NCBI RefSeq assembly: GCF_900103785.1
Contig: NZ_FNHE01000003.1
Span: forward strand, 372,001 to 436,000
DNA length: 64,000 nucleotides
Reading direction: 5' to 3'
From: Geodermatophilus siccatus
GTDB lineage: Bacteria; Actinomycetota; Actinomycetes; Mycobacteriales; Geodermatophilaceae
In this document: one piece after another, positions 36,744 to 47,621 of the stretch
Layout of the letters: every line of letters starts with the position of its first letter
Position numbering within the stretch: the stretch's first letter is position 1
Translations under genes and position numbers: made by a program
The notes under the pieces: model-generated
Told to the model about the DNA's origin: nothing
The model's input: the letters and a program-made list of their open reading frames with translations, nothing else
Databases searched by the model: none

Positions 36744-36762
36744 TTAGGTTAGGCAACGCTCA
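36744..36762 (+). promoter_or_regulatory. Iron box (DtxR/IdeR-type operator)
   Basis: TTAGGTTAGGCAACGCTCA agrees at 15 of 19 positions with the IdeR/DtxR consensus, with the left half-site perfect. It lies 93 bp upstream of the substrate-binding protein start (36855). It probably represses the operon when iron is plentiful. Confidence 0.8.
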
Positions 36763-46812: not shown

Positions 46813-47337
46813 TCACGCCCCCGCGACCGGTGGCGCCGTGGGGTCGGCGGCCTCGGCCTTGACCTCGCGCAGGACGTAGTCCTCGATCGTCTCGAGGTCG
46901 TGGGTGGAGCGCTTCACGACGGTGAGCAGGTCGCTCATCTTGCTGACCTCCTCGATCTGCTCCTTGATGAACCACTGCATGAACTGGTCGGAGGCGAAGT
47001 CGTTCTCCCGCCGGGCGACGCCGATCAGCGCGTTGATCTGCTCGGTGACGCGCTTCTCCTGCTCCAGGGCCAGGGCGACGGGGGCGACGACGTCGGCGAA
47101 CTCGCTGACCGGGGCGGGGATGCCGGGGATGCGGACCGGCGCGTCGGAGTCGAGCAGGTACTTGACCATCATCATGGCGTGCTCGCGCTCCTCGAGCGCC
47201 TGGTCGAAGAAGAGCTGCGCCGTCCTCGGCATGGTCAGCTCGTCGAAGTAGACGGCGCACGCCACGTACTGCTGGTGCGCGGCGAACTCGTTGCCGATCT
47301 GCGTGTTCAGCAGCTCGACGAAGGCGGGGGCGGCCAT
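46813..47337 (-). CDS. Ferritin (non-heme iron storage)
   Basis: A 174-residue four-helix ferritin. Ferroxidase ligands appear in NEFAAHQQYVACAVYFDE and LEEREHAMMMVKYL (ExxH), with a third site in EQINALIGVARREND. The Met heme ligand of bacterioferritin is not evident, so it is of the ferritin (BfrB-like) type. ATG at 47337 is the start. The iron box at 47413-47431 lies 76 bp upstream; in mycobacteria IdeR activates ferritin genes from upstream sites. It is inserted between carboxylase genes and converges on mccB with a 4-bp gap. Confidence 0.92.
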   Translation of the reverse strand: MAAPAFVELLNTQIGNEFAAHQQYVACAVYFDELTMPRTAQLFFDQALEEREHAMMMVKYLLDSDAPVRIPGIPAPVSEFADVVAPVALALEQEKRVTEQINALIGVARRENDFASDQFMQWFIKEQIEEVSKMSDLLTVVKRSTHDLETIEDYVLREVKAEAADPTAPPVAGA

Positions 47338-47412: not shown

Positions 47413-47431
47413 GAAGGCGAGGCTAACCTCA
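47413..47431. promoter_or_regulatory. Iron box (DtxR/IdeR-type) between ferritin and the 61-aa gene
   Basis: GAAGGCGAGGCTAACCTCA agrees at 14 of 19 positions with the consensus, including a perfect GGCTAACCT core half. It is 76 bp upstream of ferritin and ends 5 bp before the start of the small gene. The site would activate ferritin or repress the small gene, or both. Confidence 0.7.
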
Positions 47432-47435
47432 CCGC

Positions 47436-47621
47436 GTGGGGAAGTCCGCGCGCATGCCGAAGAAGAAGTGCTGCCAGGACAAGCCGCGCTGCAAGCGGTG
47501 CCCCCTGCGGGCTCTCGCCGAGGGGACGCTCCCGCCGGGCTACACGGTCAAGAAGCGCCGCCTGGTCAAGCTGGACAAGGCCGACAAGGTCCTCGCCAAG
47601 AGCACCCGCAAGGCGGCCTGA
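47436..47621 (+). CDS. Small Cys/Lys-rich protein, 61 aa
   Basis: The N-terminus reads KKKCCQDKPRCKRCPLRALA, with four Cys in a CC-x6-C-x2-C pattern that could bind zinc or iron. The rest is very basic (VKKRRLVKLDKADKVL). Similar small Lys/Cys-rich actinomycete proteins carry no assigned function to my knowledge. GTG at 47436 is the start, with ATG at 47454 as an alternative. It lies only 5 bp after the iron box, so iron should control it directly. It precedes the carboxylase alpha-chain gene by 28 bp and may be co-transcribed with it. Confidence 0.65.
   Translation: MGKSARMPKKKCCQDKPRCKRCPLRALAEGTLPPGYTVKKRRLVKLDKADKVLAKSTRKAA

Follow-up and report, generated by a model that had tools for sequence, protein, structure and literature searches.

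How iron is returned from non-haem ferritins in actinobacteria without Bfd is, to our knowledge, not settled. Blocking the release of ferritin iron starves Pseudomonas of iron (PMC7762939, PMC13366587). A separate family of ferritin partners would therefore matter for iron physiology generally, and a small gene tied genetically to both a ferritin gene and an iron switch makes the question testable. We describe such a gene from a 64-kb stretch of Geodermatophilus siccatus DNA (the window), where a frame for a 61-aa protein rich in Cys and Lys diverges from a ferritin gene (Table 1).

Table 1 Features of the ferritin/small-gene locus in the window
Feature	Position	Strand	Remarks
Ferritin gene	46813..47337	-	Divergent, upstream of the small gene; BfrB-like non-haem ferritin, 174 aa, acidic
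IdeR/DtxR-type iron box	47413..47431	.	GAAGGCGAGGCTAACCTCA; predicted; 14/19 to the consensus; place conserved in relatives; ends 4 nt before GTG
-10 element	47424..47429	+	TAACCT; predicted; 6 nt before GTG, inside the iron box; points to a leaderless mRNA
Small gene	47436..47621	+	Small basic protein, 61 aa; GTG start, TGA stop; CC-x5-C-x2-CP motif, then predicted helix and beta-hairpin
Cysteine motif	47469..47501	+	Codons of residues 12-22, C12-C13-x5-C19-x2-C22; from sequence and alignment
Flanking genes of the pair			Carboxyl transferase and biotin carboxylase, on the far sides

The frame is, with near certainty, a real gene. The sequence-only reading of this DNA had proposed it and had staked it on conservation of the frame in relatives; a genome search returned homologues in 22 of 61 related genomes, in which the frame is conserved. 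A second weak match in one genome (G006; L024, E 0.0086) was left out of the family and of all counts. Judged by pairwise dN/dS of 0.06-0.30 against 14 relatives, the frame is under purifying selection. Three Klenkia loci (L077, L083, L084) have ATG at the position of the GTG, supporting 47436 as the start. High-GC DNA is rich in long open frames, and the frame might in principle be an antisense or shadow frame of another feature, but the dN/dS values, the conserved start position and promoter spacing, and homologues with other flanks in several bacterial families make this a negligible prospect. We rejected it on the homologues in related genomes and the dN/dS.

Four cysteines are invariant in the family to which the protein belongs, an actinobacterial one that our searches indicate to be undescribed. 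Pfam returned 0 families for it (P0001) at E<=10, no NCBIfam or PHROGs model matched it, a phmmer search of the PDB gave chance matches only (best E 0.4) and profile searches of the PDB gave none. Distant members of the family likewise yielded nothing over cut-off in Pfam and NCBIfam scans. A phage origin was rejected, as neither 50,697 phage records nor PHROGs contained a match. In titles and abstract openings of the open-access literature no description of such a gene was found, which does not prove its absence. Scanning genome contigs gave 106 relatives; the best 80 of the 106 are the 80 loci of all counts below, the 26 weakest being left out, and they come from Geodermatophilus, Modestobacter, Klenkia, Nocardioides, Aeromicrobium, Kineococcus, Ornithinimicrobium and some MAGs. 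With a wider profile, members turned up in 76 of the 394 genomes sampled from the class and in 7 of 198 from the phylum; the phylum sample takes in G000 and further genomes of the class.

The motif had first been given as CC-x6-C-x2-C. Its four cysteines are correct and its spacing is not: the gap is x5, and C-x6-C is obtained only when counting from the first Cys. The main alignment has 81 rows, and all four are present in every one of them, with P8, K9, R21, P23, G30, P33, G35, V38, R41 and L43 invariant as well. In the wider set, K9, C12, C13, C19, C22 and P23 are kept in 21 of 21 rows, one of which has a typing error. The invariance of the cysteines is partly selected, because one of the two search patterns behind the best 80 of 106 loci contained CC and the wider rows were chosen with CC-x4-12-CxxC; in the wider set that pattern left only the Pro and the uniform x5 spacing unselected. 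The metal binding suggested earlier is consistent with the four cysteines in every row of the main alignment, and we consider it probable that they hold a metal, possibly zinc, or a cluster.

Two known iron-sulphur motifs resemble this arrangement. A vicinal Cys pair followed by CxxC occurs in the C-terminal motif of FhuF (PF11575), where C-C-x10-C-x2-C provides the [2Fe-2S] ligands (PMC8068687). FhuF also shares low-iron expression, which is predicted for the small gene, and an FhuF-domain protein is the upstream neighbour of the small gene in one locus (L102). The small protein, however, stands alone, is about 60 aa long and has x5 rather than x10, and FhuF_C membership was rejected, the matches in the genome falling at C13, C9 and C34 and none at the small gene. 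The [4Fe-4S] loop of endonuclease III and MutY (PF10576) has the motif C-x6-C-x2-C-x5-C, which agrees in its C-x6-C-x2-C spacing when the first Cys is counted and in its KPRC..CP[LV] wording; it differs in its fourth Cys five residues on, in place of which the small protein has an extra vicinal Cys. EndIII_4Fe-2S membership was rejected as well, with 18 places in the genome at E<=10 and none at the small gene.

Around the motif the protein is strongly basic. P23 directly follows C22, basic stretches flank the motif on both sides in the translation, the segment GYTVKKRRLVK lies after the short predicted helix, and net charge ranges from +11 to +22 across the 81 alignment rows. The fold model, which is only fair (pLDDT 76.5, pTM 0.52), has a helix at 23-29 and a hairpin at 36-45, and a Foldseek search of it against the PDB gave no match (best E 3.2). 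These properties bear on the regulator or RNA-binding protein that the sequence-only reading had suggested, which is possible and which we rank second to a ferritin partner. Zinc or an Fe-S centre on the four cysteines would shape a basic helix and a beta-hairpin 'wing', binding DNA or RNA in iron shortage and tuning, for example, ferritin or iron-sparing genes, in the manner of the basic iron-starvation proteins FbpA/B/C of Bacillus or of FeoC. We put it at well below an even chance. The strong positive charge with K9, R21 and R41 in 81 of 81 rows agrees with it, as does the fact that in many loci lacking an adjacent ferritin the gene is still there and has a box of its own. The modelled helix and hairpin, together with weak TrmB (E 0.03) and HTH_56 (E 0.27) matches of one distant member over the same part, make a nucleic-acid-binding role possible, but these matches are far below curated cut-offs and there is no fold match. 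Furthermore, a regulator acting in trans need not stay by ferritin through flips and moves. FbpA, FbpB and FbpC are Fur-regulated small basic proteins of iron starvation, and the small protein resembles them in size, in charge and, by prediction, in being made in iron starvation; they are not known to have a Cys4 motif or a ferritin linkage.

The iron box carries the link to iron. A box near the gene had been proposed, and it is there with 14 of 19 matches; the proposed distance of 5 bp is not, as the box ends 4 nt before the GTG. Boxes of 19 bp were scored against the IdeR/DtxR consensus TTAGGTTAGSCTAACCTAA over the 64-kb window and the best 80 of 106 loci. Only three 19-mers in the window reach at least 13/19, and ten 64-kb first-order Markov sequences gave a mean of 0.4 at this level and none at 14 or above. 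Of the best 80 of 106 loci, 65 have a box of at least 13/19 within 120 nt upstream of the small gene, compared with 2 of 9415 background windows taken from these loci; at 14/19 or better the figures are 42 of the 80 and 0 in the background, and within 250 nt a box of at least 13/19 was found in 66 of the 80 against 2 of 4327 background windows. Of the 49 loci numbered L086 and above, most of which are Nocardioidaceae, 35 have a box of at least 13/19. The link to iron proposed at the outset thus holds in these statistics, and we regard the association of the small gene with the predicted box as very probable. The genome encodes an IdeR close to those of known structure (L208, 364-1128, minus strand), with E 1e-76 to the DtxR-family repressor 7b1v and 5.5e-75 to IdeR 1fx7.

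The best iron signal of the window lies elsewhere, at 36744-36762 (TTAGGTTAGGCAACGCTCA, 15/19). It is just before a gene for a lipoprotein-like siderophore-binding protein, behind which come frames for a FecCD-like permease and an ATPase (functions read from translations), and it serves as a sanity check for the box scan.

In 69 of the best 80 of 106 loci a box of at least 12/19 is combined with a TANNNT hexamer that precedes an in-frame ATG or GTG by 5-9 nt, the TANNNT scan being one with no background rate. The box centre is at -14 from the start in 32 of these 69 and at -23 to -34 in 37. Since the hexamer is part of the box in the -14 group, conservation of the two is inseparable there; in the other 37 loci they are separate. 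The predicted IdeR box thus covers the predicted core promoter of what appears to be a leaderless mRNA, which is the geometry of a repressor site and predicts expression in low iron. We read this arrangement as a leaderless promoter whose core is occupied by IdeR, so that iron represses the gene. A simple promoter and terminator scan found nothing, which is unsurprising for this organism.

The box varies across the family. Five ferritin-adjacent loci (L098, L120, L122, L130, L132) have no clear box (9-10/19), and none was found at four Mycobacteriaceae-like loci (L153, L155, L157, L201; best 9-11/19). Some distant members have one just before the start, namely L189 (f48) at 16/19, L185 (f54) at 15/19 and L182 (one f34 genome) at 15/19. 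An imperfect palindrome of the approximate form GAAGG-N9-CCTTC is conserved across the start region of seven other f34 members (L186-L188, L192-L194, L197); it scores only 11-12/19 as an IdeR box and is possibly a diverged iron box.

The second partner is ferritin. The closest solved relatives of the ferritin in the window are chains named BfrB (E 8.5e-45), and it contains 14 K+R against 29 D+E. Conservation beside ferritin genes had been named as a check, and it was found: a ferritin homologue adjoins the small gene in 60 of the best 80 of 106 loci, 50 of them divergent and 10 co-directional, with the small gene first and ferritin after a gap of 17-55 nt. This latter order is like that of bfd and bfr in E. 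coli. The carboxylase flanks of the window are absent from 32 of the 60 ferritin-adjacent loci. Besides the carboxylase block, the pair is flanked in Aeromicrobium by a subtilisin-inhibitor-like gene, frequently with a PEP-mutase-like gene as well, and in Nocardioides by methylmalonyl-CoA mutase and a DAO-type oxidoreductase. In two loci (L126, L128) the Nocardioides order of mutase, ferritin and oxidoreductase is kept and the small gene is inverted relative to these. One genome has the pair twice (L061, L065).

Co-occurrence was assessed by Fisher test, with shared descent ignored except in the count by genus. The 37 sampled Geodermatophilaceae genomes contained both genes (19) or neither (18), and never one alone. 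In the class sample (n=394) both genes were present in 66 genomes, the small gene alone in 10, ferritin alone in 46 and neither in 272, so that ferritin was found in 66 of 76 genomes with the small gene versus 46 of 318 without; by genus the figures are 17 of 20 versus 26 of 118. The small gene is present in 29 Nocardioidaceae-like (f41) genomes. A close ferritin occurs in 22 of these, adjacent by coordinates in every case, while five have only a distant ferritin elsewhere and two (G085, G406) have no ferritin match at all. Conversely, in two further genomes (G367, G375) the close ferritin is present and the small gene is not. The two genes are not adjacent in the distant families f34 and f54, nor in those f8 genomes that were compared by coordinates; wider family members in G201, G215 and G369 have a box and a ferritin that is not adjacent. 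Taken over these samples, a ferritin link of the small gene is highly probable.

The loci apart from ferritin could indicate that the small gene does an iron-related job of its own and shares with ferritin only the IdeR box and the neighbourhood. Such hitch-hiking agrees with the 20 of the best 80 of 106 loci that have no adjacent ferritin, the 10 of 76 small-gene genomes with no ferritin match, the non-adjacent arrangement in G201, G215 and G369, a Nocardioides plasmid copy beside a diiron monooxygenase cluster and a copy beside an FhuF-domain protein. Nevertheless, adjacency is kept in both orientations and several gene neighbourhoods, the pair occurs twice in one genome, and co-occurrence in the 37 Geodermatophilaceae genomes is perfect; we consider hitch-hiking improbable.

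A ferritin partner made in iron shortage is the most economical account, and both the ferritin pairing, which is conserved, and the repressor-like placement of the box fit it at least as well as they fit a regulator or RNA-binding protein. The most familiar partner of this kind is Bfd (PF04324), which is thought to mobilise the bacterioferritin core and is expressed separately though adjacent in many genomes (PMC7762939). Like Bfd, the small protein has four Cys, a gene beside a ferritin-family gene and a predicted iron-repressed promoter; it differs in having no PF04324 match and another Cys spacing, in its partner, which is a non-haem BfrB-like ferritin, and in its predicted regulator, which is IdeR and not Fur. 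We rejected membership of the Bfd family for the 61-aa protein on its CC-x5-C-x2-C pattern and the lack of a PF04324 match. The Bfd pattern is C-x-C-xn-C-x2-C. No free-standing Bfd was found in the genome, the sole PF04324 match (C18) falling inside an 841-aa ORF.

By this analogy we propose, tentatively and at somewhat less than even odds, that the small metalloprotein works like Bfd and releases ferritin iron in starvation. It would be a cytosolic ferritin partner of these actinobacteria. In iron-replete cells, where ferritin stores iron, IdeR-Fe2+ would sit on the box over the core promoter and silence the gene; when iron is scarce IdeR would leave and the leaderless mRNA would be made. The basic small protein may then dock on the acidic ferritin shell. 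Its vicinal Cys pair and CxxC would hold a redox-active cluster of the Fe-S type, for which FhuF makes [2Fe-2S] the most likely form, and this cluster would pass electrons to the ferric core and so release Fe2+. Ferritin adjacency and co-occurrence, the box, the encoded IdeR, the four Cys, the opposite charges, the lack of a free-standing Bfd, the precedents of Bfd and FhuF and the one-family upstream genes of L092 and L102, the latter with an FhuF domain, count in its favour. Counted against it are the 20 of the best 80 of 106 loci without adjacent ferritin, the unpaired genomes (G085, G406, G367, G375), the box-less ferritin loci and Mycobacteriaceae-like members, the x5 as against the x10 of FhuF, the lack of an FhuF_C match, the only fair fold model with its lack of a PDB match, the possibility of zinc, and the partly selected invariance of the cysteines. 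No second iron box was found in the 17-55 nt gaps of the 10 co-directional loci, so ferritin may be co-transcribed there from the IdeR promoter, which is awkward for a switch between storage and release. The general form of the proposal is a little more tentative still: the family of about 60 residues with CC-x5-C-x2-CP may be an iron-release partner of BfrB-type ferritins, evolutionarily separate from Bfd, with a mini-FhuF-like Fe-S centre and turned on when IdeR repression is lifted.

Ferritin linkage and the opposite charges of the basic protein and the acidic ferritin would also suit a zinc- or iron-binding partner that binds the shell and alters ferritin assembly, turnover or loading without redox chemistry, or an iron chaperone feeding ferritin. 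Where the small gene precedes ferritin by 17-55 nt on the same strand, as it does in 10 loci, the two are possibly co-expressed. A box centre at -14 or at -23 to -34 predicts expression in low iron, however, the opposite of what a loading chaperone needs, and we think a structural or chaperone role unlikely.

A few loci apart from ferritin have distinctive surroundings. In L092 and L102, which have no ferritin, genes of one family lie just upstream of the small gene; that of L102 (3065-3790) encodes a protein with an FhuF 2Fe-2S C-terminal domain. Plasmid pNOCA01 of Nocardioides sp. JS614 carries a homologue at L216 4001-4117, where no gene is listed. It has a soluble methane/alkene monooxygenase cluster, FAD reductase included, on one side and a DUF1097 gene on the other, so that one copy of the small gene accompanies another diiron enzyme. 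The Aeromicrobium-type members of L103 and L105 have a long Lys-rich tail, no adjacent ferritin and no clear box (11/19), as if the ferritin link and the iron control had been lost together.
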